The position numbers were made by a program, and so were the translations under genes. Positions 8,818 to 38,649 of a DNA stretch of 64,000 nucleotides are shown here, one piece after another (the first letter of the stretch is position 1; each line of letters starts with the position of its first letter). Origin of the DNA: a virus. Under the pieces are notes generated by a model, which was not told where the DNA came from, ran no database searches, and was given only the letters and a program-made list of their open reading frames with translations. The stretch spans positions 1 to 64,000 of IMG/VR virus record IMGVR_UViG_3300037961_006825; one strand, 5' to 3'.

Positions 8818-9291
8818 ATGAAATGTATTCTAATACTTTTTATACCTATTTTATGTTTTGGAAGTGAAATAGTTTTTCAATTTAAATCTCCTACATTTAA
8901 CGGGGTAGGTTATTCAGCTCACGAATTAGCTAAAGAGCAAATTACTTTTAACAGAAAGAAAAGTATAGCAGATGAGTTAGAAGCTATAGCTTTACAAGCT
9001 CAATTAGCAGAAGATAGATCAGCTTTAAATACTTTTTTGTCAAATGTTCAAGCAAGAATTTATTCTGAATTAGCTAAGCAAGTAACTGAGCAATTATTTT
9101 CAGATGACGGAGCTGAATCAGGTACTTTTACTTTAGAAGGTAATCAAATTACTTGGTATAAATCAGCAGATGATAATATTGTATTAACTGTAGCAGATCT
9201 AATAGCTGGTACAACTACTGAAATTATTATACCAGTTGGTACATTATTTATACCGTTAGAAACAACTACAGGTACTACAGGTGATGATTAA
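8818..9291 (+). CDS. csgF: CsgF-like curli assembly protein
   Basis: 157 residues with a signal peptide (cleavage after about residue 15, FCFG-SE) and the CsgF start IVFQFKSPTFNG, the region that in characterised CsgF inserts into the CsgG pore. The middle helix and beta-rich C-terminus (TWYKSADDNIVLTVAD) also match. In bacteria CsgF sits at the CsgG secretion channel and couples secretion to nucleation of amyloid on the surface. It directly precedes csgG and overlaps it by a few bases. The C-terminal tail is Thr/Gly-rich. Confidence 0.88.
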   Translation: MKCILILFIPILCFGSEIVFQFKSPTFNGVGYSAHELAKEQITFNRKKSIADELEAIALQAQLAEDRSALNTFLSNVQARIYSELAKQVTEQLFSDDGAESGTFTLEGNQITWYKSADDNIVLTVADLIAGTTTEIIIPVGTLFIPLETTTGTTGDD

Positions 9292-10135
9292 AAATTTAAT
9301 TTTAGCATTTAGTTTATTTTTTATTGCAGGGTGTGTTTCAACACCAACTTATAATAGTCCTTATATTCAAAGACCACCTTATTTAATTGAACAAGGTGAA
9401 ATGAAAAAAATGGAAAAAGCTCCTATATATGTTGCTGTTTATAAATTTACTGATTTAACCGGTCAAAGAAAATCTACAGATAATTTTGCAAGTTTTTCTT
9501 CTGCAGTAACTCAAGGAGGTGAAGCTTGGGTAATTGAATCATTAATGGAAGCTGGTAATGGTCAATGGTTTAAAGTAGTAGAAAGAGCAGGTTTAGCTAA
9601 TCTACTAAATGAAAGAAATATAATTAAAAATACCCAAGAAGATTTTTCTGATAAACCTCCTCAAATAAAACCTTTATTATATGCAGGTATATTAATTGAA
9701 GGGGGAATTATTTCATATGAAAGTAATATTGTATCTGGCGGAGCAGGTGCTAGTTATTTAGGTATAGGTCTCTCAAAACAATACAGAAAAGATAATGTTA
9801 CAGTATCAATGAGAATGGTTAGTACTGTGTCGGGGGAAGTATTACTATCATCAACAGTAAGTAAAACTATTTTAAGTGTAGGTTTAGGTGGTACTTTATT
9901 CAAATATTTTGATACAGATAAATTAGGTTTAGGTGATTTTAATGAATATGGTGAAGCTGAAATAGGTTTTGCAAGAAATGAAAGAGTTTCAATGGCAACA
10001 AGAAAAGCTATAGATGCGTGTATAATTGATTTAGTATTACAAGGTCACGATGCTAAATTATGGAAATTATTAGAACCAATTCCAGAGCCAGAAGTTGAAC
10101 CTATTTTAGATTTGAAATCAAATAAAAGTAAGTAA
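9284..10135 (+). CDS. csgG: CsgG-like curli secretion channel lipoprotein
   Basis: CsgG forms a nonameric outer-membrane pore that secretes curli subunits. The lipoprotein signal LILAFSLFFIAGC has a clear lipobox. The body has CsgG features: IYVAVYKFTDLTGQ, a WFKVVERAGLANLLNER block, the IKPLLYAGILIEGGI region and VTVSMRMVSTVSGEVL. Length fits the family (about 277-285). I start it at ATG 9284; an in-frame GTG at 9281 is immediately upstream. It overlaps csgF and is followed by the curlin-like gene. No csgE is seen, so periplasmic gating may differ or be host-supplied. Confidence 0.93.
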   Translation: MIKNLILAFSLFFIAGCVSTPTYNSPYIQRPPYLIEQGEMKKMEKAPIYVAVYKFTDLTGQRKSTDNFASFSSAVTQGGEAWVIESLMEAGNGQWFKVVERAGLANLLNERNIIKNTQEDFSDKPPQIKPLLYAGILIEGGIISYESNIVSGGAGASYLGIGLSKQYRKDNVTVSMRMVSTVSGEVLLSSTVSKTILSVGLGGTLFKYFDTDKLGLGDFNEYGEAEIGFARNERVSMATRKAIDACIIDLVLQGHDAKLWKLLEPIPEPEVEPILDLKSNKSK

Positions 10136-10139
10136 TTTA

Positions 10140-10147
10140 TATAAATA
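10140..10147 (+). promoter_or_regulatory. Late promoter TATAAATA of the curlin-like gene
   Basis: Perfect late box ending 5 bases before ATG 10153. It would give extra, leaderless transcription of the curlin-like, FecR and cyclase genes. Confidence 0.72.
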
Positions 10148-10152
10148 CTTAT

Positions 10153-10959
10153 ATGAAGAAAATTACATTTATATCAATATTAGCGTTAGTTACCTCGTTA
10201 GCATATGCAAATAACGAGATTTACTTAGAACAGGAAGGTACAACAGGTACTTTTAATATTACTCAAATCGGTTCATCAAATAGAATCGGTCAATCAACTG
10301 ACATTTCAACAATTAAAGGTAATGATAGTATCTTTAATTTATCTCAATTAGGTAATAGTAATGCATTAGACATCAATTGGGATGGTAAAGAAACTACTTT
10401 TGATCTTTATATTGAAGGTGATGGTAATACACAAGACTTAGTAGTTACAGGGGATGGTAATGATTTTGATAATGTTATTTTAGGTAATAATAACTCTTTA
10501 ACAGTTTCAAAAGACCCAACTTCTGACGATGCTTCAAGTATTTCAGATCAAACATTTAATAATTATATTATTGGTGATAGTAACTCTTTAGATTTTTATC
10601 TTGATTCGAATGTTAATGCTGTAGTTGATATTACAATTGCAGGTAGTAGTAATGATTTAACATCAATTCAAGAAGGTGGTAACTTAGGAGTAGGTCATTC
10701 ACAAACACTTGAATTACAAGGTAGTGGTAATACAGTAGAGTTAGTACAAAGTGGTTCAGAATCTCAAACATTAGAATTAACTCACTACGGTCATGACACA
10801 ACATTTACAATTATTCAATCAGATGGAACGTATACAGCTGGTTTAGAAGGTGCTAATGTAATAAGTAATTTTGATGGAAGTTATTCAGCAGTTTATGCAC
10901 AACCTGGTTTCTTACTTGGCTCAGTACCTGAAGCAACAGCCGGTGCTGACGGTAACTAA
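10153..10959 (+). CDS. Curlin-like amyloid repeat protein
   Basis: 268 residues. Signal peptide MKKITFISILALVTSLAYA, then imperfect repeats of about 20-25 residues of the type FNITQIGSSN, FNLSQLGNSN, LELQGSGNT and VELVQSGSES, resembling the Q-x-G-x-x-N curlin repeats of CsgA/CsgB. With csgF and csgG immediately upstream, this is the likely secreted substrate. The repeats are more degenerate than in E. coli CsgA and the C-terminus (YAQPGFLLGSVPEATAGADGN) is not repeat-like, so whether it forms fibrils is unproven. Predicted extracellular. Confidence 0.82.
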   Translation: MKKITFISILALVTSLAYANNEIYLEQEGTTGTFNITQIGSSNRIGQSTDISTIKGNDSIFNLSQLGNSNALDINWDGKETTFDLYIEGDGNTQDLVVTGDGNDFDNVILGNNNSLTVSKDPTSDDASSISDQTFNNYIIGDSNSLDFYLDSNVNAVVDITIAGSSNDLTSIQEGGNLGVGHSQTLELQGSGNTVELVQSGSESQTLELTHYGHDTTFTIIQSDGTYTAGLEGANVISNFDGSYSAVYAQPGFLLGSVPEATAGADGN

Positions 10960-11872
10960 ATCTTTAATTTTATTTTTCTTCATTTGTTTAACCTCTTCTG
11001 CTGCTGGTTCAGTTGGAGAGGTTTTCCATCAAACAAGACAAGCTCAAATTACTAGAGGAGCAGATAAAATTTTAACTGAAGTAGGTACTGAAGTTGAAAT
11101 GGGTGATAAAATAGAAACATTAAAAGGTAGTATCACTATAGTATTCGTTGATAAAACTGAGGTAACTATATCAGAATATTCAAAACTTATAATAGATGAA
11201 TTTGTATATGATGCTAATAGTAATAAAGGAAAAATTAATTTAAAAGCAGGTTTAGGTAAATTAAAATATACTTCAGGTATAATGGCTAATAAAGAAAATA
11301 TTAGAATAACGACTCCTACTGCATCAGTTTCTGTTAGAGGTACTGATTTTGAAACTACTGTAAATGAAGCTGGCTCAAGTACTTTTACATTACTACCTTC
11401 AATAGCTGCTGATGGGTCAACGTATGTTGGAGTTATTGAAGTTTTTAATGCAACCGGTGCTGTTGTATTAGATACTGCTTTCGAAGTAACTACTGTATCA
11501 TCATCTTATACACCACCTACTCCTCCAGTAATTAACAGAGCAAGATTAAATGAAGCTATAGAAAAAAGAGATAATCAAAATGAAGAAATAAATGAAACCG
11601 AATCAGTAGATGATGAAGAATTAGATTTAGATAGTGAAAAAGACGCTTTAGATGAATCTTTAATACAGTTAATGGAAGAAGATAATTCAAATGGATTATT
11701 TTATGAAGAAGATGACAAAGCAATATTTGAATCTGTAGATGGAGAGAATAAAGTTAAATTAATAGTAGATAAAGATTCAAATGTCTCACTAAAATATGAT
11801 AATAAAGGAGTTATAACTGAAGGTAATCACAACAGTGGTGGTAACGTAATTATAAATATTATACAACAATGA
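10943..11872 (+). CDS. FecR-domain protein
   Basis: A signal peptide (KSLILFFFICLTSSAAG) precedes a FecR domain: GDKIETLKGSITIVFVD, TEVTISEYSKLII, the LKAGLGKLKYTSG block and ITTPTASVSVRGTDF. After it come an acidic Glu/Asp-rich region and a C-terminal VIINIIQQ segment. Secreted or periplasmic. I prefer the GTG at 10943, because it places the signal peptide at the N-terminus and reduces the overlap with the curlin-like gene to 17 bases; an in-frame ATG at 10871 would add a non-signal extension. In bacteria, FecR-domain proteins are often encoded beside CHASE2-cyclases, as here. A ligand-sensing role for the cyclase is inference. Confidence 0.8.
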   Translation: MLTVTKSLILFFFICLTSSAAGSVGEVFHQTRQAQITRGADKILTEVGTEVEMGDKIETLKGSITIVFVDKTEVTISEYSKLIIDEFVYDANSNKGKINLKAGLGKLKYTSGIMANKENIRITTPTASVSVRGTDFETTVNEAGSSTFTLLPSIAADGSTYVGVIEVFNATGAVVLDTAFEVTTVSSSYTPPTPPVINRARLNEAIEKRDNQNEEINETESVDDEELDLDSEKDALDESLIQLMEEDNSNGLFYEEDDKAIFESVDGENKVKLIVDKDSNVSLKYDNKGVITEGNHNSGGNVIINIIQQ

Positions 11873-13911
11873 AGTTAAAAAAACTAAAACCATTTTTATG
11901 GTGTATGTTTATTGCATTAATATTTTCTGCAATAAGAATATACGATCCATACCCGGTAGAAATAATTAGACTTAAAGGTTTAGATTTTTATCAAAGGCAA
12001 CAAGAAGCAAAAATATCTCAAGAAATTAGTATTGTAGAAATAGATGAAGCAAGTTTAGAGCAATATGGTCAGTGGCCTTGGAAAAGAGATATTTTATCTA
12101 ATGGTATAATAAAAGCATTTGAAAATAATGCAGCTTTAGTAGTATTACCAATATTATTTGCTGAAGAAGATAGACTAGGTGGTGATGAATTTTTTATACA
12201 AACAATACAAAATTATCCTGTAGTTACTTCGCAATCAGCTTCATTGAAAGGTAAGGGTAAAGTAGTACCAAGAGGTATATCTACTATTGGTACGGGGTTA
12301 TATAATTGGTTATATGACTATCCAGCAGGTATAGGACCGTTAGATAGTATAGGTAAATATTCAGCAGGGGTAGGTATGCTTTTAACAGCTCCAGAGTTAG
12401 ATGGCGTTGTGAGAAGGCTACCTTTACTTATACAAATTAATGGAGAACCTTACCCTACAATACCTTTAGAAGTTTTACGATTATTCGGAGGTGAACAATC
12501 TTATCAGGTAAAAGTTGATGAAATGGGAATAAATAAAGTTAGAGTATTAGGTGTAAATACTATTGATACTGACCAACATTCTCGAGTTTGGATAAACTTT
12601 AATAATGAATTTAATAAAATATCATTCATAGATAATGATTGGACAAGTTTAGAAAATAAGATTGTTGTAATTGCTTTAACAGCTGAAGGATTATCTAACT
12701 CAGTTGCAACACCAATTAAGGTTAGCAATGGTCATGAATTAAATATGCAGGTTTTACAAATGTTAATTGACGGCAATACTTTAAATAGACCAGTTGACGC
12801 AACTATAAATGAAGTTCTTATAACTTTAGGTATAAGTTTAATTTTAACTTTAGGTGCATTATTTTTATTATATTATATAAATGTATTTTTATTACTTATT
12901 ACAGTAATTTTATTACCTTATACAGGGTTTTACCTCTTTAATAACTATAATTTACTTTACGACTATACATATCCTTTATATTCAACATTTATAATTTTTA
13001 CAATAGCTATTTTCTTTAGATTTATTCATGAATTTAAAGGTAGAATGTTAATAAAAAAACAATTTGAACATTATCTTGCCCCTGAAATAGTTAAAAAACT
13101 TCAAAAGAATCCTGATATGTTAAAATTAGGAGGTGATACACAGGACTTAACTATTTTATTTTCTGATATCAGAGGGTTTACTACTATAAGTGAGCAATTC
13201 AAAGATAATCCACAAGGATTAACTGATTTAATTAATAGATATCTTACACCTATGACTCAAATAGTTATGGAATCAGGCGGTACTATTGACAAGTATATTG
13301 GAGATGCTTTAATGGCGTTTTGGAATGCACCTATACCAGAAGATAAGACGTCACATAGAATAAAAGCTATAGAAGTTGCAATAAAAATGCAATCTGAGTT
13401 GGAAAAACTTAATATACAATTAGTAGAAGAAGGTAAAAAGGAACTTGCAATAGGTATTGGTATTAATACTGGAACAGTTGTGGTAGGTAATATGGGATCT
13501 GATCAAAGATTTGATTATACTTGCTTAGGAGATGCTGTAAATTTATCAGCTAGACTTGAAGGGCAAACTAAATCATATGGCGTGGGTATATTATTAGGTG
13601 AAGAAACTATAAAACATATTGAAGATAAATTTAAATTTATTGAGTTAGATAAAATTGCAGTGAAGGGTAAAAAAGAAGGTAAATATGTATATACAGTTTT
13701 AGATAAATTTAACCATACTTTACATAATGCATTTTTAGAGTACTATAAGAATAGAAAATGGAAACAAGCTTTATTGACAATAGAGAAGATTTTTGATAAA
13801 GGTACACAGCTTGAGTTTTACTATAAAGAAATGGAAAAAAGAGTTGTTGATTTAGCTAAAAATGATCCAGGTGAAGATTGGGATCAAGTATATAGATTAA
13901 AGACAAAATGA
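11869..13911 (+). CDS. Membrane class III adenylate cyclase with CHASE2 sensor
   Basis: 680 residues: N-terminal transmembrane helix (about 8-24), periplasmic CHASE2 domain (about 30-305, with VEIDEASLEQYGQWPW and LVVLPILFAEED), three transmembrane helices (about 312-385), then a cytoplasmic class III nucleotidyl cyclase domain (about 425-600). Catalytic residues visible: metal-binding Asp in LFSDIRGFTT and in YIGDALMAFW, the specificity lysine in TIDKYIGD, and Asn/Arg in DAVNLSARLEG. The active site looks complete and most like bacterial adenylate cyclases. ATG overlaps the FecR stop (ATGA). A membrane cyclase in a phage is highly unusual. cAMP rather than cGMP as product is inferred from motif type. 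Confidence 0.93.
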   Translation: MKLKKLKPFLWCMFIALIFSAIRIYDPYPVEIIRLKGLDFYQRQQEAKISQEISIVEIDEASLEQYGQWPWKRDILSNGIIKAFENNAALVVLPILFAEEDRLGGDEFFIQTIQNYPVVTSQSASLKGKGKVVPRGISTIGTGLYNWLYDYPAGIGPLDSIGKYSAGVGMLLTAPELDGVVRRLPLLIQINGEPYPTIPLEVLRLFGGEQSYQVKVDEMGINKVRVLGVNTIDTDQHSRVWINFNNEFNKISFIDNDWTSLENKIVVIALTAEGLSNSVATPIKVSNGHELNMQVLQMLIDGNTLNRPVDATINEVLITLGISLILTLGALFLLYYINVFLLLITVILLPYTGFYLFNNYNLLYDYTYPLYSTFIIFTIAIFFRFIHEFKGRMLIKKQFEHYLAPEIVKKLQKNPDMLKLGGDTQDLTILFSDIRGFTTISEQFKDNPQGLTDLINRYLTPMTQIVMESGGTIDKYIGDALMAFWNAPIPEDKTSHRIKAIEVAIKMQSELEKLNIQLVEEGKKELAIGIGINTGTVVVGNMGSDQRFDYTCLGDAVNLSARLEGQTKSYGVGILLGEETIKHIEDKFKFIELDKIAVKGKKEGKYVYTVLDKFNHTLHNAFLEYYKNRKWKQALLTIEKIFDKGTQLEFYYKEMEKRVVDLAKNDPGEDWDQVYRLKTK

Positions 13912-15652: not shown

Positions 15653-15849
15653 TTAACTTTCAAACATATTTCGAAAATTATGCTGACGGTAAACGTAAAG
15701 GTAAAAGTAGACCTGGTAGAGTTAAGCGCGCTGGTGCTAGCTGTAAAGGGTCAGTATCTGAACTAAGACGTAAAGCTAAAAAATATGGTGGTGAAAAAGG
15801 TAAGATGTATCATTGGTGTGCTAATATGAAAGGTGGTAAAAAGAAATGA
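15649..15849 (+). CDS. Small basic protein, two cysteines
   Basis: 66 residues, about one third Lys/Arg. Motifs GKSRPGRVKRAGASC and MYHWCANMK are of a type I associate with conserved marine T4-like phage proteins. N-terminus MINFQTYFENYADG resembles neighbouring leaders. Likely DNA-binding or virion internal; not proven. Overlaps the genes on both sides by 4 bases. Confidence 0.7.
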   Translation: MINFQTYFENYADGKRKGKSRPGRVKRAGASCKGSVSELRRKAKKYGGEKGKMYHWCANMKGGKKK

Positions 15850-16469
15850 GTTACGATTCAGTTACAGAATTATTTTTAGAAAAATATGAAGGTATTAAAC
15901 CAGTTAAATTACCTTATGCGCTTGATGCTTTAGAGCCTTATATAGATGCTGAAACGATGAATTTACATTTTAATAAACACTATAAAGGTTACGTTAAAAA
16001 ATTAAATGCAGCTTTACCAGCTACAAATAAACAAGATTTATTATCAATTATTAAAAAAGCTAAATCTAAAAAAGATGCTATTCGTAACAATGCTGGCGGT
16101 GCTTATAATCATCAGTTATTTTGGTTTATGATGTCTCCAGATAGAAAACCTATCTCAGGTGAAATAAAAGATCTTATTGAAAAACAATATAAAAGTTTCG
16201 ATAACTTTAAAGCTAAATTCGTTGAAGAAGCTTTAGCCCATTTCGGGTCAGGTTGGTTATGGTTAGTTAAAAAAGGAAATAAACTTGAAATGATATCTAC
16301 AGATAATCAAGATAATCCTTTAATGACTTCTGATGTAACTATCCTTTTAGGAGTAGATGTTTGGGAGCATGCTTATTACAAAAAGTATGGACCAAATAGA
16401 GAAAAATATCTTAAGCAATTTTTAAAAATTGTAAATTGGGATTATTGTAATCAGCAATTAACTCAATAA
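15846..16469 (+). CDS. Superoxide dismutase, Mn-type
   Basis: Fe/Mn-family superoxide dismutase, disproportionating superoxide to H2O2 and O2. All four metal ligands are visible: H41 (NLHFNKH), H89 (GGAYNHQLFW), D171 and H175 (GVDVWEHAYY). G85 and Q155 (STDNQDNPLM) are at the positions that distinguish Mn from Fe enzymes, favouring Mn. The core begins at residue 20 (VKLPYALDALEPYIDAETM); residues 1-19 (MSYDSVTELFLEKYEG...) are an extra leader. Last gene of the Nudix operon, overlapping by 4 bases. Phage-borne SODs are rare. Cytoplasmic or packaged (inference). Confidence 0.95.
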   Translation: MSYDSVTELFLEKYEGIKPVKLPYALDALEPYIDAETMNLHFNKHYKGYVKKLNAALPATNKQDLLSIIKKAKSKKDAIRNNAGGAYNHQLFWFMMSPDRKPISGEIKDLIEKQYKSFDNFKAKFVEEALAHFGSGWLWLVKKGNKLEMISTDNQDNPLMTSDVTILLGVDVWEHAYYKKYGPNREKYLKQFLKIVNWDYCNQQLTQ

Positions 16470-18626: not shown

Positions 18627-19460
18627 ATGTCAAAGATTGGATTAGGAATAGTTACCTGTGACCGACCAGATTTTTTATCAAAATGTATAGAAGGCATTGA
18701 TCTTGACCTATTTCATCGTCGCGTTATAGTAAATGACGGTAAAATGCCAGTAAAACATAATCGTTTTAATATTATTAATAATGAAGAAAATTTAGGGGTT
18801 GGCAAGTCAAAAAATAAAATATTACAAGATTTATACAATAATGATTGCGATTATATCTTTTTACTTGAAGATGATATGATTGTACACGACAATATAGTAT
18901 TTCAAAAGTATATAGATGCATCTAAAAGATCAGGTATACAACATTTCAATTACGGTCCTGGCTCTCCATTCAATAGAAAACAAAATGTAGCTTTTGATTT
19001 GCATAATCGACATGAATTAGATCAGCATTCTGATCCTGTACCACGAAAAATTATTGATTATGGTAATAATGTAAAGGTTTCACTTTTTACCCATACAGTT
19101 GCAATGTTTTCGTTTTTTACGCGTAAGTGTATAGAAGAATGTGGATATTTAGATGAAGATTTTTATAACGCGTGGGAGCATGTAGATCATACTTATAGAA
19201 TAGCAAAAGCTGGGTTACACCCTCCATTTTGGTGGTTTGCTGATATTTATAATAGTCACGATTTAATTAGTGAAGCTCCGCAAGCAATTGATAAATCCTC
19301 TATTGCAGAAAATAAAGAACAGTGGGAAAAAAACGTTTTTGGTGGTATAGAAATATATAAAAAGAAACATGGACATGTACCTAATCAACCTCCTTTAGTT
19401 AATGAATCTGAAATACCAAGTATTTTAAAGGAAATAAAAAATAAATATGCAACAAGATAA
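18627..19460 (+). CDS. Family 2-type glycosyltransferase
   Basis: 277 residues with a GT-A fold pattern: GLGIVTCDRPDFL start, nucleotide-sugar region NLGVGKSKNKIL, metal-binding EDD in IFLLEDDMIV (about 85) and a late acidic/His region AWEHVDHTYRI. Donor and acceptor unknown. First gene of a surface-glycan cassette running to 28382; overlaps the next by 14 bases. Confidence 0.87.
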   Translation: MSKIGLGIVTCDRPDFLSKCIEGIDLDLFHRRVIVNDGKMPVKHNRFNIINNEENLGVGKSKNKILQDLYNNDCDYIFLLEDDMIVHDNIVFQKYIDASKRSGIQHFNYGPGSPFNRKQNVAFDLHNRHELDQHSDPVPRKIIDYGNNVKVSLFTHTVAMFSFFTRKCIEECGYLDEDFYNAWEHVDHTYRIAKAGLHPPFWWFADIYNSHDLISEAPQAIDKSSIAENKEQWEKNVFGGIEIYKKKHGHVPNQPPLVNESEIPSILKEIKNKYATR

Positions 19461-20367
19461 ACCAAAAGATCCTTCTATTAGTATTGTAATGACTCATTTT
19501 AATAGAGCTCATCTATTAGAAAGAACATTACATACTTTCACGTATAATAAAACAAGAGATTTTGAAATAGTTATTGTAGATGATGCAAGTGAGACTGATG
19601 AGTGGGAAAAGTTAATAAATTTAATTAGTGAATATAAACAACATTTTAAGTTTAGAGTTTTTAGAATTAGAGAAAATAGTAAGTGGTATTCCAATCCATG
19701 TATACCTTTTAATATTGCATTAAAACAGGCTAAAGGTAAAATTATTATAATACAGAATCCAGAATGTTTACATGTTGGCAATATTATTGATTATGTGCAT
19801 AAACGACTTGATGCATTTGATTCCGACGAAGCTATTCCACATAGAAAATTTATGTCTTTTGCTTGTTATAATATTGATAAGAATCAAACCGAGTCATTAG
19901 CTCCTAACCCTACACCAGAAGAGGTTTTAAAAACTATTAACCCGGTAAATAATAATCCTATTACACATTGTGAAGAACCGGGTTGGTATGATCATTCTAA
20001 ATATAGACCTTTAGCATATCATTGGTGCAATGCAATAGCAAATGAAGATTTTAAAAAATTAAAATATTTCGATGAGAGATATGCTTTTGGTACAGCTTAT
20101 GATGATGATGAATTAGCATGGAGAGTTAAAAAACTATTATACTCATATAATGAAGGTATTAATAATCCTTTAGTAGTGCATCAATGGCACGGTTTGGGTA
20201 ATTATTATAAAAATCCTAATCAAGCAGAAAATCAAATGAAACAAGATTACAATCACAAGTTTTATGAAACAATTACTAAAAGTGAACAAAGAGGAAAATA
20301 TAATCCTGATAATATAAGAAATGATTTATCTGAAAAAGTAGAATATGATATAGTATCAGGTGTATAA
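19447..20367 (+). CDS. Family 2 glycosyltransferase
   Basis: 306 residues. GT2 start SISIVMTHFNRAHLLERTL and VIVDDASETDEW are clear. The usual DxD position reads IIIQNPEC, so the metal site is unusual, but the C-terminal AYDDDELAWRV has the acidic catalytic motif. Adds a sugar in the same glycan pathway as its neighbours; specificity unknown. Confidence 0.9.
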   Translation: MQQDKPKDPSISIVMTHFNRAHLLERTLHTFTYNKTRDFEIVIVDDASETDEWEKLINLISEYKQHFKFRVFRIRENSKWYSNPCIPFNIALKQAKGKIIIIQNPECLHVGNIIDYVHKRLDAFDSDEAIPHRKFMSFACYNIDKNQTESLAPNPTPEEVLKTINPVNNNPITHCEEPGWYDHSKYRPLAYHWCNAIANEDFKKLKYFDERYAFGTAYDDDELAWRVKKLLYSYNEGINNPLVVHQWHGLGNYYKNPNQAENQMKQDYNHKFYETITKSEQRGKYNPDNIRNDLSEKVEYDIVSGV

Positions 20368-20370
20368 ATT

Positions 20371-21420
20371 ATGAAAAAAACAATAGTTACAGTTACAGGT
20401 ATTAGACCAGACTTTATACGTATGTCAGAAGTTTTTAAAAAACTTGATAAAGATTTTAATCATATATTAGTACACACAGGTCAGCATTATGATAAACTTC
20501 TTTCAGATGTATTTTTTGATGAACTTGATATAAGAAAACCTGATTATAATTTAAAGATTGGAAAACCGGGCGCTGAACATTTTCACCAATCAGCAGATTT
20601 ATCTGTTAAATTAATTGAATTACTAAGAAAGATAGGTAATGTAGATTGTGTAGTATTTTTAGGTGATTCAAATTCTGTATGTATAGCTCCTCAACTTAAA
20701 AAGGAAGGTTATAAAATAGCTCATATAGAAGCAGGTATGAGATCATATGATAAAAGAATGCTCGAGGAAGTTAATCGAGTAGTTTGCGATCATTGTAGCG
20801 ATTTTCTTTTCGTGTATCATGATAATTATAAAATAAAACTTTTCTATGAAAAAATAAATGAGCATATCTATACAGTGGGGAATACTATTGTTGAAGTTTT
20901 GAAAAAAGTTCATAAAAATAAGAAAAAGAAAACTTCTGATTATATCATTCTTGATATACATAGACCAGAGAATTTTAAATATAGAGATAGACTTATACAT
21001 ATATTAGATTTTGCAGATAATTTTAATTTACCGGTAAAGTTTTTAAACTTTAAACGAACTATGCAATATATAAAAGATTTTGAAATAGATATGAGTCTAT
21101 ATAAAAATATAAAAATTATTGATTTATTATCATATAAAAAATTTATTGATTTGCAGTATAATGCATATTGTATAATTAGTGATTCTGGTACAGCTCAAGA
21201 AGAACCGGCACTACTTAAAACTCCTGTTATAGTACCTAGAGATTATGCTGAAAGACCTGAATCAGTTGAATATGGATGTTCAATTGAAGTTAATGCTAAT
21301 AAAATTATACAGGTAGAAGCAGCAAAAAGTTTTATTGAAAATTATAACCCTAATATTGAATGGTTAGGAAATGGAAACACTAGTCAATTAATAGTAAATA
21401 AATTAAAAGAAATTTTATGA
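20371..21420 (+). CDS. wecB: UDP-N-acetylglucosamine 2-epimerase
   Basis: 349 residues, WecB/NeuC-type epimerase making UDP-ManNAc (or releasing ManNAc). Motifs: VTGIRPDFIRMSEV, LVHTGQHYDKLLSD, VVFLGDSNSV, HIEAGMRSYD, EVNRVVCDH and the C-terminal SDSGTAQEEPALLKTPVI. Catalytic acidic and histidine residues appear kept. ManNAc supply would feed surface polysaccharide or sialic-acid-type glycans. ATG follows the previous stop by 3 bases. Confidence 0.93.
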   Translation: MKKTIVTVTGIRPDFIRMSEVFKKLDKDFNHILVHTGQHYDKLLSDVFFDELDIRKPDYNLKIGKPGAEHFHQSADLSVKLIELLRKIGNVDCVVFLGDSNSVCIAPQLKKEGYKIAHIEAGMRSYDKRMLEEVNRVVCDHCSDFLFVYHDNYKIKLFYEKINEHIYTVGNTIVEVLKKVHKNKKKKTSDYIILDIHRPENFKYRDRLIHILDFADNFNLPVKFLNFKRTMQYIKDFEIDMSLYKNIKIIDLLSYKKFIDLQYNAYCIISDSGTAQEEPALLKTPVIVPRDYAERPESVEYGCSIEVNANKIIQVEAAKSFIENYNPNIEWLGNGNTSQLIVNKLKEIL

Positions 21421-22208
21421 ATAGAAAAAAGATAATAGGCTTCGGTCAGATGAGAAATGAGAGCGAGAATGGTAACCTAGAAAATTGGTTTAAATGTATG
21501 GAGCCTTGTGATCATATCTATATTTTTGATCAAGCGAGTACAGATAATAGTAAAGAAATCTATGAAAAATATAAAGATAGAACTACTGTTATATATAGTC
21601 CGACTAATAGATTTACCGAAGAACTATTATGTAAAGATGAATTATATAGATTAATGTTAAAGGAACATCCTGATGTAGATTGGGTATTATGGTTAGATGG
21701 GGATCTATTACTTGATGGAAGATTATTAGTAGATGATAATCTACAAAAATTATGTCATAAACTTGATGAAGCGAAAGTAGACCTTCCTTGTTTTGGTCAT
21801 TATAATTTATGGAGATCAGATAAATGGTATAGGAAAGATAATGCTTACCATGATTTACATATGCATTGGTTCCCTTTATGGGGTCAACCGCAAAATAAAT
21901 GGTTTGATAGACAACCTGGATTACATCACGGACAAGTACCTCAAGGTACAACTAAACATGCACAGGTTGATGTTAACGTGATTCATTTCGGGTTTAAAAA
22001 TGAAGAAAAAATTGTTAATAAATATTTACACTATAAAAGTTTAGGGCAATCTGGATGGGCATTAGATAGATTAGTTGACGAAAGTACACTAGATGTCGGT
22101 GAAGTCCCGAGTCATATATATCCGAAATGGTTTAAAATAGAAGACGATCAATCACCTTTAAATAAACCAAAATTAATAGATAAATACAAAGAAAAAATAT
22201 TTAGTTAA
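21417..22208 (+). CDS. Glycosyltransferase, family 2-like
   Basis: 263 residues. GFGQMRNESENGNLENWFK and YIFDQASTDNSKEI are the nucleotide-binding start; LWLDGDLLLDG (about 98) carries DGD in place of DxD. Rich in Trp, His and Tyr in the acceptor half. ATG overlaps the epimerase stop (ATGA). Likely same glycan pathway. Confidence 0.85.
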   Translation: MNRKKIIGFGQMRNESENGNLENWFKCMEPCDHIYIFDQASTDNSKEIYEKYKDRTTVIYSPTNRFTEELLCKDELYRLMLKEHPDVDWVLWLDGDLLLDGRLLVDDNLQKLCHKLDEAKVDLPCFGHYNLWRSDKWYRKDNAYHDLHMHWFPLWGQPQNKWFDRQPGLHHGQVPQGTTKHAQVDVNVIHFGFKNEEKIVNKYLHYKSLGQSGWALDRLVDESTLDVGEVPSHIYPKWFKIEDDQSPLNKPKLIDKYKEKIFS

Positions 22209-22210
22209 TT

Positions 22211-23707
22211 ATGAATATTACTACTTTAGGTCATGCAGGTCTATGGATAGAAACAAAAGATCTTAAAGTTTTATGCGATCCATGGCATTTTAAAAACCCA
22301 GCTTTTTTTAATACCTGGCATGTTTATCCGGATAATAGTAACGTAGATTGGGATCATATACTTGAAAAAACCGATATTGTTTTTGTATCTCATGTACATA
22401 AAGATCATTTTGATGAAAAAATATTAACTGATTTATTAGAAAAAAATAATGACGTAAAAGTATTATTACCAGATTTTAGATTCTGCGAACTTAAAAAAGA
22501 TTTCGAAAAAATTGGATATAAAAATTTTATTATAAAAGAATACAAAAAGGGAGATACCACAATAGTAACGTATCCGTCTGAAACTATCGATAGGGAAAGA
22601 GAAGATAGTAGTATTTGTGTAAATGATGGTAGTAAAACTTTTTTAAATTTTAATGATTCTACTATAACCCCTGAACATAAAGATAATATAATAAAAAGAT
22701 TCAAAAAAATTGACTGGGCTGCTGGTCAATTTTCCGGAGCTAACTGGTGGCCTTCATGTTATGAATATAATGAAGATAAAAAACTTGAATTAATTTTATC
22801 ATATAAAAAACGCAAGATTGATCATTATAAAAGAATGATTGATTATTTAGGGGTTAAAAAAATGATACCAATAGCTGGACCTCCTTGTTTTCTTCAAAAT
22901 AATTTAAATGAATTAAACTATAGAGAAAATAAGAAAAGTATATTTTTTGATAATTGGGATGTACCTGAATTTAATTTAATGAAACAAGTATATAGAACAT
23001 TACCTGGTGATAGATATACTTTTTCATCCATAAAAGATATTAAAGATAGACCATTCGATAAAGAGGAATTTATTAAAAATAATTTATACGATTTTAATTA
23101 TGATGTATCAAACGATGAAATAAAAAAAATTGATAAAAAAATATTTTCTTTATTTAGCGATTTATTATCAAATAATACCTGGTTAAGCAAGTATATTAAA
23201 TGTAAAATTTACTTAAATGTAGAAAATTATAAAACTTTTTGTTTAGATTTTAAAAATGCAAAAGTATCTACAGAAGACGAAATTATTAAAAAAGGAATTT
23301 ATTATATTATAAATTTTAAACAAAAAGTAATTTACGATTTACTTTTTAAAAATATAACTGATTGGGAAGAAGCATTTTTAAGTTGTACATGTACATTTGA
23401 AAGAAAACCTGATTTATATAATCCATGGATATTATCATTTTTTAGAAATCTTAATAATGATAGATTACAAAAAATATATGAAATAACCCAATCCAGTGAA
23501 GTATTAGAAGGTAAAATGATAGTTGGTGATTATGAGGTAAATAGGTATTGCCCTCATCAACAATATGATTTAATGTATCATAGTAAAATAGATCTTGAAA
23601 ATGGGACTATACAGTGTTTAGGACACGGTTGGAAATGGGACTTAGAAACCTGTGAAGGTATAAATTGTGCTGCAAAAATTATTTGTAATAGAATAATACG
23701 TAAGTAA
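22211..23707 (+). CDS. Metallo-beta-lactamase fold protein fused to a Rieske domain
   Basis: 498 residues. The N-terminal half is a UlaG-like MBL fold: GHAGLWIETKDLKVLCDPW, then metal motif SHVHKDHFD (about 59-67). The C-terminus is a Rieske [2Fe-2S] site: CPH near 448-450 and CLGH near 470-473, followed by GWKWDLETCEG. The same two modules occur in CMP-N-acetylneuraminate hydroxylase (CMAH), there with the Rieske part first. A mono-oxygenase or hydroxylase acting on a sugar nucleotide is plausible given the flanking epimerase and glycosyltransferases. Substrate unproven. Confidence 0.88.
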   Translation: MNITTLGHAGLWIETKDLKVLCDPWHFKNPAFFNTWHVYPDNSNVDWDHILEKTDIVFVSHVHKDHFDEKILTDLLEKNNDVKVLLPDFRFCELKKDFEKIGYKNFIIKEYKKGDTTIVTYPSETIDREREDSSICVNDGSKTFLNFNDSTITPEHKDNIIKRFKKIDWAAGQFSGANWWPSCYEYNEDKKLELILSYKKRKIDHYKRMIDYLGVKKMIPIAGPPCFLQNNLNELNYRENKKSIFFDNWDVPEFNLMKQVYRTLPGDRYTFSSIKDIKDRPFDKEEFIKNNLYDFNYDVSNDEIKKIDKKIFSLFSDLLSNNTWLSKYIKCKIYLNVENYKTFCLDFKNAKVSTEDEIIKKGIYYIINFKQKVIYDLLFKNITDWEEAFLSCTCTFERKPDLYNPWILSFFRNLNNDRLQKIYEITQSSEVLEGKMIVGDYEVNRYCPHQQYDLMYHSKIDLENGTIQCLGHGWKWDLETCEGINCAAKIICNRIIRK

Positions 23708-23727
23708 TTGATCTTCAATTTTTAGTT

Positions 23728-23735
23728 TTTAAATA
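23728..23735 (+). promoter_or_regulatory. Late-type box TTTAAATA
   Basis: Ends 6 bases before ATG 23742, in a 34-base gap inside the glycan cassette. A weaker match, but at standard spacing. Confidence 0.35.
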
Positions 23736-23741
23736 ATAGTA

Positions 23742-24488
23742 ATGATAAAGAAAAACGTTGAAATAATTACCTTAATTTATAAAAGTGTAGACTATTTACG
23801 TTTCATTGTTGAACAAATGAAATCAGATAGATGCAAAGCAGAAGGTTGGGATGTAGGTATAAGAGTTGTAGCTAATGATGCAACGCCTGAAGTTTTAGAT
23901 GAACTTAAAAAATTAGATATACCTTATACTATTCATAATAACTTTTGGACTAATGAATTTTATCTTAATAAAGTATATAGAGCATATAATTATGCAGTAA
24001 TAACTAGTGAGTATGATAATGTAGTTTTAATTAATTCAGATTATGTTATCGGTGAAAACTTTTTAACTAATTTATTAAAACATCACGATGGGGTAAATAT
24101 ACCTTGTGGTAGACTTATTGAAAGTGGTAAGATGCCTTCAGGTGAAAATGCTATTAATATGGGTCAGAATGATTTTGGTAGATCTCCAAAAAATATTGAT
24201 AAAGAAGGTTTTGACAACTGGGTTAAAAATAATGCAGAAGATAAAACTTTACCAGGTGGGTTGTTTATGCCAGTTGTATTAGAAAGAAAAACATTTATCG
24301 ACAGTTGCATGTACCCTTTAGGTAATATATATCATAACGGTATAGGTACTGCAAACTTTGGTGGAAAATATGTGCAGTCAGGTGATGATTTTTATTTTAA
24401 AAGAGTTTTAGCTAAAAGAGGTATGAAACATATAACTGTTTGCGATTCATGCGTCTATCACATTATAGAGGGTGAAAAAGACGAATAA
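23742..24488 (+). CDS. Glycosyltransferase-like protein (GT-A)
   Basis: 248 residues. Start VEIITLIYKSVDYLRFIVEQM and VVLINSDYVIG (in place of DxD) are GT2-like, and the late AKRGMKHITVCDSCVYHI segment fits a catalytic C-terminus. Weaker match than its neighbours, but the context supports glycan assembly. Confidence 0.78.
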   Translation: MIKKNVEIITLIYKSVDYLRFIVEQMKSDRCKAEGWDVGIRVVANDATPEVLDELKKLDIPYTIHNNFWTNEFYLNKVYRAYNYAVITSEYDNVVLINSDYVIGENFLTNLLKHHDGVNIPCGRLIESGKMPSGENAINMGQNDFGRSPKNIDKEGFDNWVKNNAEDKTLPGGLFMPVVLERKTFIDSCMYPLGNIYHNGIGTANFGGKYVQSGDDFYFKRVLAKRGMKHITVCDSCVYHIIEGEKDE

Positions 24489-24991
24489 TGATTAGACATG
24501 AAGAATTTATAGAAGCTATTGCAGTTATTAAAAGACCTAAATCATATTTAGAATTAGGATTATACCAAGGTGATACTATCAATAGAATATCAAAATATTT
24601 TAAAAATAAAGAAAATATTGTTGGGGTTGATATGCTTCTTGAACCTATAATAGATGGTACGTTTCATAAAATGTCTACTGATGATTTTTTTAAACAAAAT
24701 AAAAAAAACTTTGATATGATTTTTATTGATGCTGATCACAGATATGAAAGTGTTAAAAAAGATTTTAAAAACTCTATAAAAATTTTAAACCCAGGTGGTG
24801 TAATTTTATTACATGATACTGACCCAGAGAATGATAATTTATTTAATGACGGTTATTGTGGCGATTGTTATAAAATAGTAAAAGAATTAGAAGAGGATGA
24901 AAGATATAATATAACAACATTACCTATCGAAGAAGCTGGGTTATCAATTGTAACAAGAAAAAATGAAACGAGAACACAAATAAGAAAATGA
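24488..24991 (+). CDS. SAM-dependent methyltransferase (class I)
   Basis: 167 residues, Methyltransf_24/cephalosporin-hydroxylase-like: YLELGLYQGDTINRI (SAM site), IVGVDML, FDMIFIDADHRYESVKKD and GVILLHDTDPEND. Such enzymes often O-methylate sugars; a sugar target is inferred from position. Overlaps the preceding gene by one base and the following by 4. Confidence 0.87.
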   Translation: MIRHEEFIEAIAVIKRPKSYLELGLYQGDTINRISKYFKNKENIVGVDMLLEPIIDGTFHKMSTDDFFKQNKKNFDMIFIDADHRYESVKKDFKNSIKILNPGGVILLHDTDPENDNLFNDGYCGDCYKIVKELEEDERYNITTLPIEEAGLSIVTRKNETRTQIRK

Positions 24992-25911
24992 AAGGTTGGT
25001 TAGTACACGATTACATGACATGTATACCTAATACTAGAACATTATGGTATGATTTAGTTGATTGGTTACCACATTTAGAAGATAAGTGTAATAATGGAGA
25101 GTTAATGAGACTTCCAGAACATGTTGACCAACTATTAAAGCATAATGAAGAACCAGATTATGTAATCCGCAATGCATCCTATTGGCCTACATATGCTTTT
25201 TCTAAATCTAAAATTATTTCTATTCTCCAAGATTTTAGAGATGAACCAACTCTAAAGCAATGGCAACTTGATGTTTGTAATGGTAGTGATAAAGTTATAG
25301 CAGTTTCTAATTATGTAAAGGAAAAATTTTCTGATGATATTGATAAAGAAAATGTAGAAGTTTTACCTATCGGTACAGATTTTAATTTTTTTAAACCGCA
25401 AGAAGTAGATAATGAGTTTGATATATTACCAAATTCAATTTTATGGATAGGAGATTATAATAATAATCCAAAAGGGTTTGATATATTAAAACAAATAATT
25501 AAAAATACTAACTATAATTTTTGTATAGTTTTAAAATCAAATATAAAATTTGAACATAAACGTATTAGATGTTTCAATAGAATTTCTCATGAAAAATTAG
25601 TTAGAATTATGAACAATTGTAAAGCAGTTTTATGTACTAGCAGAGAAGAAACATTACATTTATCATCAATAGAAGCTGCAGCTTGTAACCTACCAGTTAT
25701 AACATCTAATATAGGAATACATTATAATGTTAAATCAGGTGTATGGGGGGAAAATGTACCAACTTTTGATTATAATGACTATATTACTTCAATAGATAAG
25801 GTTTTTAATAATATAAAAAATTATACACCAAGAGATTATTTTAATGAAAGATATAGTATATCTGCATTAAAAGAAAAATGGTTAAAAATGATTAATGAAG
25901 TTATTGATTAA
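24988..25911 (+). CDS. Family 4 (GT-B) glycosyltransferase
   Basis: 307 residues. GT-B pattern: DKVIAVSNYVKEKF, VLPIGTDFNFFKP, SILWIGDYNNNPKGFDIL (start of the C-terminal Rossmann domain) and the donor-binding SSIEAAACNLPVITS with the E-x7-E type region. Shorter than typical GT4 (350-400). Donor sugar unknown. Confidence 0.88.
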   Translation: MKGWLVHDYMTCIPNTRTLWYDLVDWLPHLEDKCNNGELMRLPEHVDQLLKHNEEPDYVIRNASYWPTYAFSKSKIISILQDFRDEPTLKQWQLDVCNGSDKVIAVSNYVKEKFSDDIDKENVEVLPIGTDFNFFKPQEVDNEFDILPNSILWIGDYNNNPKGFDILKQIIKNTNYNFCIVLKSNIKFEHKRIRCFNRISHEKLVRIMNNCKAVLCTSREETLHLSSIEAAACNLPVITSNIGIHYNVKSGVWGENVPTFDYNDYITSIDKVFNNIKNYTPRDYFNERYSISALKEKWLKMINEVID

Positions 25912-25931
25912 TCGTAAAAGTATACTATAAT
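25904..25931 (+). promoter_or_regulatory. Internal host-type promoter
   Basis: TTGATT (25904-25909, inside the end of the previous gene), 16 bases, TATAAT (25926-25931), 7 bases to ATG 25939. Separately drives the sugar-nucleotide genes. Confidence 0.75.
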
Positions 25932-25938
25932 ATAATAT

Positions 25939-26892
25939 ATGAAAATTTTAGTAGTAGGTGGAGCTGGTTATATAGGCGGATATTTAGTTGATCAACTAAT
26001 TGAAAAAGGTCATGAACCTATCGTATATGATAATATTCTTTATGAAGATCGTTATTTAAAAGATGTACCTTTTATTAGAGGTGATATAAGAGATACGTAT
26101 AAATTAGTTGAAGCTGCTGAAGATTGTGATGTAGTGGTTTTAGCTGCAGCGTTAGTTGGAGACCCAGCTTGTAGTGTTGATAAAAATCTAACTGATAGAA
26201 TTAATTATCAGGCTATTAAAAGAGCTTGTGAAGATTTACCTAAAGATATACATGTTATTTTTATGTCAACTTGTTCGGTATACGGAGCTCAAGACGATGT
26301 ATTAGATGAAGAAAGTAGTACAAATCCTTTAAGTGAATATGCAGTTACTAAGTTAAAAGCTGAAGATCATATTAAAGAGAGAAACGGTACTATCTTTAGA
26401 TTAGGAACGGTATATGGTGTAGGCGATGCAATGAGTAGAATAAGATTAGACTTAGTAGTAAATGTTTTAACTTATAATGCAATAAAGAATGGAAACATAA
26501 CTGTAAACGGTGGAGATCAATGGAGACCTATTATTTCAGTAAAAGATATATCAGGGTATATAATTGAAGCGGCACAAAGAAAACCTAATGATACCTTTAT
26601 TCTCTCTTATGAGAATACTACTATAAAACAATTAGGTGAATTAGTTGTTAAAGAGTTACCTGGTACAGAAATAAAATATACTGAAATATCTTTTCAAGAC
26701 GCACGTAATTATAAAGTATGTGCTAAAAAAGCAGAAGATTATTTTGATTATATGGCAAAATGGTCTCCTGCAGAAGAAATTAAACAGATGGAAAAAATCT
26801 TTAGAGAAGAAAGATTAAAAAATCCGGATGATGAAATTTATAGTAATGGTAAATATCTTGCAGAGTTAAAACGAACAAATGGATTTAATTAA
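25939..26892 (+). CDS. NAD-dependent sugar epimerase/dehydratase
   Basis: 317-residue extended SDR: VVGGAGYIGGYLVDQL (NAD site), the catalytic SEYAVTKLKAE (Y-x3-K) and STCSVYG. Closest in style to GalE/UDP-glucuronate decarboxylase-like epimerases. Acts on a nucleotide sugar for the glycan cassette; exact reaction unknown. Confidence 0.9.
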   Translation: MKILVVGGAGYIGGYLVDQLIEKGHEPIVYDNILYEDRYLKDVPFIRGDIRDTYKLVEAAEDCDVVVLAAALVGDPACSVDKNLTDRINYQAIKRACEDLPKDIHVIFMSTCSVYGAQDDVLDEESSTNPLSEYAVTKLKAEDHIKERNGTIFRLGTVYGVGDAMSRIRLDLVVNVLTYNAIKNGNITVNGGDQWRPIISVKDISGYIIEAAQRKPNDTFILSYENTTIKQLGELVVKELPGTEIKYTEISFQDARNYKVCAKKAEDYFDYMAKWSPAEEIKQMEKIFREERLKNPDDEIYSNGKYLAELKRTNGFN

Positions 26893-27115
26893 TATGAGCG
26901 CGCACTTAAAAGCAATAGTAAAAAAACTAGAAGGCCAGCGAGACATTGAGCTTGCTGATTTAGATACCTACTTAACAAAGCAGGTAGCAATTGGTGAACA
27001 TCCTGATATAGGTGTTGAAATAGAAAAGAAAATTGAAAAAATTGATGAGTTAGATTCAAAAATAGATACAATTCAAAAATATTTTAATAATAGTCAAATG
27101 GAATTATTAGGGTGA
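26879..27115 (+). CDS. Small coiled-coil protein
   Basis: 78 residues, highly charged and helical, predicted coiled coil over residues 40-72. No known domain. ATG 26879 overlaps the previous gene by 14 bases; ATG 26894 (MSAHLKAIV) lies 2 bases after the previous stop and is a good alternative. Confidence 0.6.
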   Translation: MDLINMSAHLKAIVKKLEGQRDIELADLDTYLTKQVAIGEHPDIGVEIEKKIEKIDELDSKIDTIQKYFNNSQMELLG

Positions 27116-27534
27116 ATGAAATAAATGAAATAAAAGGCGGCGTTGCTGTTGATGATAGAGGGTCGGTTAGATTTGTAAATGATTTTGACTTTAAAAATGT
27201 AAAACGCTTTTATCAAGTCAGTAATCATAAAGAAGGTTTTATTAGAGCTTGGCATGGTCATAAAAAAGAAGGTAAGTATGTTTATGTTGCAAAAGGTTCA
27301 GCTTTAATCGGAGCTGTAAAATTAGACGGTACTAATAATCCTCATAAATTTATACTATCATCTCAATCGCCGAAAGTTATTTATATACCACCTGGTTATG
27401 CAAATGGATTTAAAAATTTAGAAGAAGATACCATTGTTCAATTCTTCTCTACTTCAACCTTGGAGGAAAGTTTAGGAGATGATTATCGATATGATCACGA
27501 TCATTGGAATATTTGGGAGGAAGATTATAGATGA
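27112..27534 (+). CDS. RmlC-like cupin (dTDP-sugar 3,5-epimerase family)
   Basis: 140 residues. Cupin core with RmlC-type motifs: FIRAWHGHKKEGKYVYVAKG, YIPPGYANGFKNL and DHDHWNIWEED. RmlC epimerises dTDP-4-keto-6-deoxyglucose, and with the RmlD-like gene next to it a rhamnose-like deoxysugar is likely. Starts with GTG at 27112 overlapping the previous stop; no in-frame ATG fits. Confidence 0.85.
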   Translation: MNEINEIKGGVAVDDRGSVRFVNDFDFKNVKRFYQVSNHKEGFIRAWHGHKKEGKYVYVAKGSALIGAVKLDGTNNPHKFILSSQSPKVIYIPPGYANGFKNLEEDTIVQFFSTSTLEESLGDDYRYDHDHWNIWEEDYR

Positions 27535-28382
27535 ATATATTAGTTTTAGGTGCAAAAGGAATGTTAGGTAGATATGTTGCAACATATCTTAATAAAAATA
27601 AAGATTATCAAATTTATTGTACTGATAGAAGACATTTAGATGTCTCTAAAGTAGATAGAGATGATATATTATCACAACTTATGTTTCCAGAAAATGGTAA
27701 GGATATAAAAATTGATTTAGTTATAAATTGTATTGGTATGATTAAACCTGTAATTGCTAAAACTTCTATGAGTGAAGCAATAAAGGTTAATACTTTATTT
27801 CCACATTTAGTAAGTGAAGTATGTAAAGAACATGATATTAAATTTATACACGTAACTACTGACTGTGTATATACAGGTAGTTTGGCAGACTTTACTTTAG
27901 GTTATGATGAAATGGATATACATGATGCTGAAGATGATTACGGTCTAACTAAATTTTTAGGTGAACCAAAAAATTGTACTGTTATTAGAACATCTATAAT
28001 TGGTGAAGAAGTTGGTCAATCTCGTTCATTAATTGAATGGATAAAGAATCAAAGAAACGGTAAAGCAAATGGTTATACTAATCATTATTGGAATGGAGTA
28101 ACTTGTTTGCAGTTTGCTAAAATTGTTGAACGTATGATTGAAACTGATAATTTTTGGGAAGGTACTAAACATATTCACTCTGATGCTGTTGATAAATTTC
28201 AGTTAGTAGAAATGATAAATAAAATTTATAATTTAAATATTGAAGTTACTCCAGTAGAAGGTCCTTCATTTTGTAATCGATCGTTATCATCAGTATACGA
28301 AGATACAGAAAAATTAAATACTGAAACTTTAGAAACACAAATTAAAGAATTAGCTAAATTTTCGGATGAACTCTATGCATGA
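27531..28382 (+). CDS. RmlD-like dTDP-4-dehydrorhamnose reductase family
   Basis: 283 residues. NAD(P) site VLGAKGMLGRYVATYL, Asn-Cys region VINCIGMIKP, catalytic DYGLTKFLGE (Y-x3-K). Reductase step of a deoxysugar pathway, paired with the RmlC-like cupin (4-base overlap). RmlA and RmlB are not in the window. Confidence 0.88.
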   Translation: MNILVLGAKGMLGRYVATYLNKNKDYQIYCTDRRHLDVSKVDRDDILSQLMFPENGKDIKIDLVINCIGMIKPVIAKTSMSEAIKVNTLFPHLVSEVCKEHDIKFIHVTTDCVYTGSLADFTLGYDEMDIHDAEDDYGLTKFLGEPKNCTVIRTSIIGEEVGQSRSLIEWIKNQRNGKANGYTNHYWNGVTCLQFAKIVERMIETDNFWEGTKHIHSDAVDKFQLVEMINKIYNLNIEVTPVEGPSFCNRSLSSVYEDTEKLNTETLETQIKELAKFSDELYA

Positions 28383-38418: not shown

Positions 38419-38649
38419 ATGGCTGATAAAGAAGAGAAACAGCCAGAGAATGTTCCTGGCAAATTCTACGTTGATGAACAATGTATAGATTGCGACATGT
38501 GTAGAGATCATGCCCCGGAGTTTTTTATGCGCAGTGATGATGGAGGTTATTCTTACGTTTATAATCAACCTAAAAATGATAATGAAATCGAATTATGTGA
38601 AGAAGCTTTGCAAGATTGCCCTGTAGAAGCAATAGGAAATGATGGATAA
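38419..38649 (+). CDS. Single-cluster ferredoxin
   Basis: 76 residues. Cluster ligands CIDCDMC at the N-terminal side and CPVEAIG at the C-terminal side give one [4Fe-4S] or [3Fe-4S] cluster. Acidic, cytoplasmic. Its place between nrdA and nrdB suggests electron supply to, or radical maintenance of, the ribonucleotide reductase, as YfaE-type ferredoxins do for class Ia enzymes; that analogy is inference, since YfaE is a [2Fe-2S] protein. Confidence 0.9.
   Translation: MADKEEKQPENVPGKFYVDEQCIDCDMCRDHAPEFFMRSDDGGYSYVYNQPKNDNEIELCEEALQDCPVEAIGNDG

Follow-up and report, generated by a model that had tools for sequence, protein, structure and literature searches.

A NamH-like MBL-SCP2-Rieske protein in the glycan cassette of a T4-like phage is a predicted N-acetyl-sugar hydroxylase

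NamH is the mycobacterial N-acetyl-muramic-acid hydroxylase, which forms N-glycolyl muramic acid and carries an UlaG-type MBL domain at its N-terminus and a Rieske domain at its C-terminus (PMC10050696). The NamH genes were already known to be distantly homologous to CMAH, the animal CMP-N-acetylneuraminic acid hydroxylase (PMC6481270). NamH and CMAH are the two characterised branches with the MBL/SCP2/Rieske domain set, and in both the target is the N-acetyl group of a nucleotide sugar (PMC6481270, PMC10050696). The MBL diiron family also comprises FrsH and CmlA, which hydroxylate amino acids on carrier proteins (PMC7794379). Here we analyse a stretch of viral DNA of 64,000 nucleotides (the window; positions 1 to 64,000 of IMG/VR record IMGVR_UViG_3300037961_006825), in which a protein with the NamH domain set is encoded among glycosyltransferase and sugar-nucleotide genes (Table 1).

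Table 1. Features of the NamH-like gene and its surroundings (window positions)
Feature	Position	Strand	Basis
Probable glycosyltransferase	18627..19460	+	No Pfam match; GT-A-like N terminus by eye only
Glycosyltransferase family 2	19447..20367	+	PF00535, E 3.7e-12
Non-hydrolysing UDP-HexNAc 2-epimerase (WecB/CapG/WbpI class)	20371..21420	+	PF02350, E 1e-60
Glycosyltransferase family 2-like	21417..22208	+	PF13704/PF00535 near cut-off
NamH-like MBL-SCP2-Rieske protein, 498 aa	22211..23707	+	PF13483, PF25451 and PF00355, each above Pfam cut-off; full-length homologue alignment; AlphaFold model
MBL-fold domain, residues 1-270	22211..23020	+	PF13483; VIA-align Z 16-21 against MBL-fold chains, residues 1-271
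HxHxDH metal motif (H61, H63, D65, H66)	22391..22408	+	Invariant, 37/37 relatives
SCP2-like domain, Rv3818 type, residues 313-421	23147..23473	+	PF25451, 39.4 bits, cut-off 28.2
Rieske [2Fe-2S] domain	23537..23662	+	PF00355; ligands C447/H449 (23549-23557), C469/H472 (23615-23626)
Probable glycosyltransferase	23742..24488	+	By eye, GT-A-like; no Pfam match
SAM-dependent methyltransferase	24488..24991	+	PF13578, E 1e-13
Glycosyltransferase group 1 (GT4-like)	24988..25911	+	PF13692, E 7.5e-11
NAD-dependent sugar-nucleotide epimerase/dehydratase	25939..26892	+	PF01370, E 4e-29; best PDB 6vo6
RmlC/FdtA-like sugar-nucleotide cupin	27112..27534	+	PF00908, PF05523, PF14667
RmlD-like sugar-nucleotide reductase	27531..28382	+	TIGR01214, E 6e-16, below its cut-off

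The open reading frame is intact, running from ATG to TAA without an internal stop. An initial annotation had described an N-terminal SHVHKDHFD motif and a C-terminal Rieske site in this one protein; both were found, the latter as CPH(x19)CLGH, and both domains scored above the Pfam cut-offs, with Lactamase_B_3 (PF13483) at residues 3-81 (33.1 bits, cut-off 24) and Rieske (PF00355) at residues 443-484 (23.6 bits, cut-off 20.3). Between them lies an SCP2_Rv3818 domain that the annotation had not listed, and which was matched again, with 42.4 bits, in a search of the whole record. As all three domains exceed their curated cut-offs, this is not a chance pair of motifs. PF25451 is named after Rv3818, which is NamH, and the order of the domains from N- to C-terminus, MBL-SCP2-Rieske, is that of NamH. 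The arrangement had been interpreted as the modules of CMAH in reverse; it is indeed reversed with respect to CMAH, where the Rieske domain comes first, but the order is not new, since NamH provides the precedent (PMC10050696). The AlphaFold model of the protein was of high confidence (pLDDT 88, pTM 0.89).

The kinship with cellular NamH-like proteins extends over the full length. Actinobacterial homologues aligned over residues 1-480 of 498 by tblastn (E down to 6e-52, 29% identity), and those of Nocardia, Rhodococcus and Tsukamurella gave end-to-end alignments with 29-32% identity; they are of about equal length, possess the same three Pfam domains and have in common with the phage protein the MBL, SCP2 and Rieske motifs, all the Rieske and MBL motif residues being kept. 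One full-length actinobacterial homologue adjoins an annotated UDP-N-acetylmuramate dehydrogenase gene. When 84,980 species, each represented by one genome, were scanned with a pattern-based method, hundreds of relatives were retrieved, and the best 80 were nearly all from Actinomycetota; full-length NamH-like matches were also present in about a dozen of the 301 Chloroflexota genomes, where short flanking stretches inspected by eye contained no obvious glycan neighbours. On Microbacterium plasmid NZ_CP072877.1 (L005:6001-7758) the NamH-like gene is split into three ORFs, which correspond to the MBL, middle and Rieske parts. With respect to CMAH, an approximate query sequence was matched in its MBL part by the family profile (E 3e-19), and in this query the Rieske part came first and the MBL-SCP2-like part second; we treat both results as a lead only. 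Judged by its sequence, the phage protein is a member of the NamH/CMAH type whose setting is new.

When the family profile was compared with the PDB, FrsH (7e-15) and CmlA (1e-9), both diiron monooxygenases of the MBL fold, ranked first, and the hydrolases of this fold followed with E values of 2e-6 or weaker. By sequence, the MBL part is thus akin to FrsH/CmlA ahead of the hydrolases. Unlike the phage protein, these two best solved-structure matches show no Rieske or SCP2 match, and their substrates are carrier-bound amino acids. The C-terminus of the profile matched Rieske oxygenases and the Rieske ferredoxin of toluene-4-monooxygenase, which is a known electron donor to a diiron enzyme. In the structure comparison (VIA-align, residues 1-271) MBL hydrolases gave Z scores of 18-21 and CmlA/FrsH of 16-18; the hydrolases therefore align structurally as well as the monooxygenases do, and the sequence profile separates the two kinds better. 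Residues 1-277 made up most of what the structure search covered, the SCP2 and Rieske assignments coming from sequence models, and a search of the viral structure library returned generic MBL proteins only. Besides the residues of the HxHxDH motif, D132 and D149 were invariant in the 37 relatives compared, D127 was kept in 35 and H8 in 32. No invariant histidine was found after H66 within the MBL domain of these 37 proteins which, together with the invariant aspartates as candidates, suggests a carboxylate-rich ligation. These conserved candidate ligands would fit a diiron site that is rich in carboxylates and receives its electrons from the Rieske cluster.

The CxH...CxxH pattern of the Rieske ligands was kept in 79 of the 80 cellular relatives fetched by their MBL motifs, although complete proteins also have an advantage when matches are ranked by their full-length score; this figure is fairer than the conservation in our alignment A5, which is partly built in because its rows were chosen for the motif. 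The two nearest viral relatives also retain the ligands. Loss of the Rieske ligands in relatives, which the initial annotation had named as a condition that would refute its reading, was thus not seen in these two or in 79 of the 80 cellular relatives, while other viral MBL relatives, which form a set of their own at a greater distance, have no Rieske domain at all.

No relative came up when 50,697 phage records were searched at the near-DNA and protein levels, nor when contigs of viruses and genomes were scanned with patterns from a single protein; alignment-based scans were required. In IMG/VR these scans yielded two further three-domain proteins, one in contig L009 with 44% identity and one in L090 with about 30%. 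They also yielded ten loci, with seven distinct proteins, that encode a Rieske-less MBL relative. A scan with L090 alone recovered only L090 itself, and one with alignment A5 only L009 again. Both three-domain relatives belong to phage glycan cassettes. In L090 the gene is found among probable glycosyltransferases. In L009, the nearest relative, it is followed by genes for a PseB/FnlA-type dehydratase and a WbjC-type reductase, that is, for UDP-6-deoxy-HexNAc synthesis; these enzymes belong to L009 and differ from the sugar-nucleotide enzymes of the window. L009 (11465-13332) and L090 (15118-16982) also have two genes in common, one kinase-like and, after it, one of the nucleotidyltransferase-HAD type, with about 35% identity each; these were not found in the window. 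In the tree, the window protein and L009 formed a pair (100/99) that fell outside the 27 cellular NamH-like sequences (97/96), under long branches and limited sampling. The phage protein is hence not inside the actinobacterial NamH-like clade, nor in the wider set with the Chloroflexota sequences, and as L090 and others have long branches, the deeper placement of the phage proteins is unsure. Two of the Rieske-less loci, L094 (5348-12722) and L100 (7027-12686), encode in this order a PseB-type dehydratase, the MBL protein, a DegT aminotransferase, a NeuB-type synthase and a CMP-sugar synthetase. These cassettes are of the pseudaminic/legionaminic type. PseG found no match in the whole of either record, and the MBL protein might there replace this UDP-sugar hydrolase.

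In the window, the NamH-like gene belongs to a series of closely spaced genes on one strand that encode a UDP-HexNAc 2-epimerase, glycosyltransferases and sugar-nucleotide enzymes, and not to a wall-synthesis setting; its ATG lies 2 bases past the stop codon of the preceding glycosyltransferase gene, which overlaps the epimerase gene by 4 bases. The initial annotation had pointed to an adjacent UDP-GlcNAc 2-epimerase and to at least four glycosyltransferases. The epimerase is present, and the region 18627-26000 holds two glycosyltransferases above the Pfam cut-off, one borderline and two recognised by eye only. The product of one of the latter, immediately downstream of the NamH-like gene, resembled by blastp (26%, E 1e-12) that of ORF 12655-13845 of the viral contig L100, and the relative of this ORF in L097 is a Pfam GT2 protein. 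We also considered the cupin and RmlD-like genes as a split WbjC; this was rejected, the cupin being weakly like that of the L009 WbjC (E 9e-6) and the RmlD part showing no similarity.

Both the major head protein and the portal protein are T4-like, with marine cyanophages as nearest relatives (about 30% identity), and a csgG-FecR-CHASE2/cyclase (adenylate/guanylate cyclase) module at 9281-13911 is shared with two phages of Gram-negative hosts, Pelagibacter phage HTVC008M and Methylophilales phage Melnitz. The phage thus resembles, by its sequence, T4-like phages of Gram-negative hosts. Elsewhere in the window, a 6-pyruvoyl tetrahydropterin synthase (QueD-like) gene and a QueF gene (2865-3542 and 47332-48261) give a hint of 7-deazaguanine metabolism, an ORF at 15846-16469 resembles by eye an Fe/Mn superoxide dismutase, and a small ferredoxin-like ORF (38419-38649, 76 aa, CxxCxxC...C by eye) lies between two ribonucleotide reductase genes; its product could donate electrons to either enzyme. 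Pelagimyophages are reported to carry glycosyltransferase-rich islands, thought to alter the O-chains of the host and to exclude co-infecting phages (PMC7029224). On this account a change of the surface glycan is the likeliest purpose of the cassette, and glycosylation of the virion is possible.

Because the protein is a full-length NamH homologue, CMAH-type chemistry on an N-acetylated sugar is the best reading, and we consider it fairly probable that the phage protein is an O2- and iron-dependent monooxygenase of the NamH/CMAH type, predicted to convert the N-acetyl into an N-glycolyl group on a nucleotide-activated HexNAc. From the computed domain content, homology to NamH, MBL kinship with diiron monooxygenases and gene context, we infer the metal, the chemistry, the substrate and the destination of the glycan. 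A ferredoxin or reductase of the host (or of the phage) would pass electrons to the C-terminal Rieske [2Fe-2S] cluster and from there to the dinuclear metal site, most likely of iron, in the N-terminal MBL domain. This site would activate O2 and hydroxylate the N-acetyl methyl of the sugar, while the SCP2-like middle domain would probably help to hold the nucleotide-sugar substrate. The likely substrate would be a UDP-N-acetylhexosamine that the neighbouring genes make or use, UDP-ManNAc or a UDP-6-deoxy-HexNAc derived through the 2-epimerase, and the adjacent same-strand glycosyltransferases would place the modified sugar on a glycan of the host outer membrane or on the virion. Evidence against the N-glycolyl reading comes from the identity to NamH-like proteins, of about 30%, and from the position of the phage pair outside the cellular clade, so that the substrate, and even the reaction, could have drifted.

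The neighbouring 2-epimerase bears on the choice of the sugar. It scored 189.5 bits with the wecB model TIGR00236, below its cut-off of 210, and just 40 bits with the NeuC model, and the PDB ranking was led by 4neq, followed by 4hwg, CapG 7ya2 and 8sxv. It is most like the WecB type and next like the CapG and WbpI types, so UDP-ManNAc is one candidate substrate among several. The earlier proposal of hydroxylation of a ManNAc- or sialic-acid-like sugar therefore survives in part: N-acetyl-sugar chemistry is upheld by the homology to NamH and a ManNAc-type (UDP-HexNAc) candidate fits the adjacent epimerase, whereas a sialic-acid substrate is not supported. That an activated nonulosonic acid (sialic, legionaminic or pseudaminic) is hydroxylated in the manner of CMAH appears very unlikely to us. 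The chemistry and the component domains are those of CMAH, the epimerase could supply ManNAc, and Rieske-less viral MBL relatives do occur in NeuB cassettes, NeuB being present in five of their seven records. However, NeuB was not found in the 74,204-base record nor in those of L009 and L090, CTP_transf_3 was not found in the former, and no cytidylyltransferase or CMP-sugar synthetase above cut-off was detected in the three Rieske-bearing records, all of which may be fragments of genomes whose host could supply the pathway. The absence of NeuB and CMP-sugar synthetase from these records speaks against sialic acid and for UDP-HexNAc, and the epimerase fits the non-hydrolysing WecB class, not NeuC.

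NamH is the closest characterised relative, and on actinobacterial plasmids family homologues are located next to UDP-N-acetylmuramate dehydrogenase genes or in their vicinity; the phage enzyme might accordingly act on UDP-MurNAc like NamH proper and N-glycolylate the peptidoglycan precursors of the host, for instance to protect the wall from competing lysins. We regard this as quite unlikely: the genes around it encode glycosyltransferases and sugar-nucleotide enzymes, none nearby is a peptidoglycan-precursor gene, and the phage groups with phages of Gram-negative hosts. As the protein groups with L009 outside the NamH clade, its substrate is probably other than UDP-MurNAc. An oxygenase of the Rv3818 family acting on another C-H bond of a sugar or of a lipid-linked glycan, not on the N-acetyl methyl, is unlikely in our judgement; very few family members have been tested for substrate scope and FrsH and CmlA hydroxylate carrier-bound amino acids (PMC7794379), but NamH and CMAH both act on nucleotide-sugar N-acetyl groups (PMC6481270, PMC10050696). 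Finally, the high structural Z scores to MBL hydrolases, and Rieske-less viral relatives in glycan cassettes that may themselves be hydrolases, could suggest an UlaG-like metal-dependent hydrolase with a vestigial or regulatory Rieske domain. The existence of such relatives implies that the MBL part can be of use even where the Rieske domain is missing; nevertheless, the sequence profile favours diiron monooxygenases and the Rieske ligands are intact in the window protein, L009 and L090, making a hydrolase highly improbable.

Together, these results place the predicted N-acetyl-sugar hydroxylase in a new setting, with a substrate that is probably new. To our knowledge, almost all other reports of N-glycolyl sugars concern Neu5Gc or N-glycolyl-muramic acid, which is why a phage-made one would be notable, and the presence of a NamH-family enzyme among the glycan genes of a phage leads us to predict a third. 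We tentatively propose, with a confidence that falls somewhat short of even, that phages carry their own N-acetyl-to-N-glycolyl hydroxylases and make this third class for the infected-cell surface or the virion, of which UDP-ManNGc or an N-glycolyl 6-deoxyhexosamine may be examples. The compact family formed by cellular NamH-like proteins, phage proteins and Rieske-less phage relatives is suited for testing the role of the Rieske module, as well as the move of this domain between NamH and CMAH. Changing a surface glycan by a single oxygen atom would be a new route for a phage and could alter receptor recognition by competing phages; if the predicted N-glycolyl chemistry is true, this phage may build an unusual sugar for the surface of its host or for its own virion.
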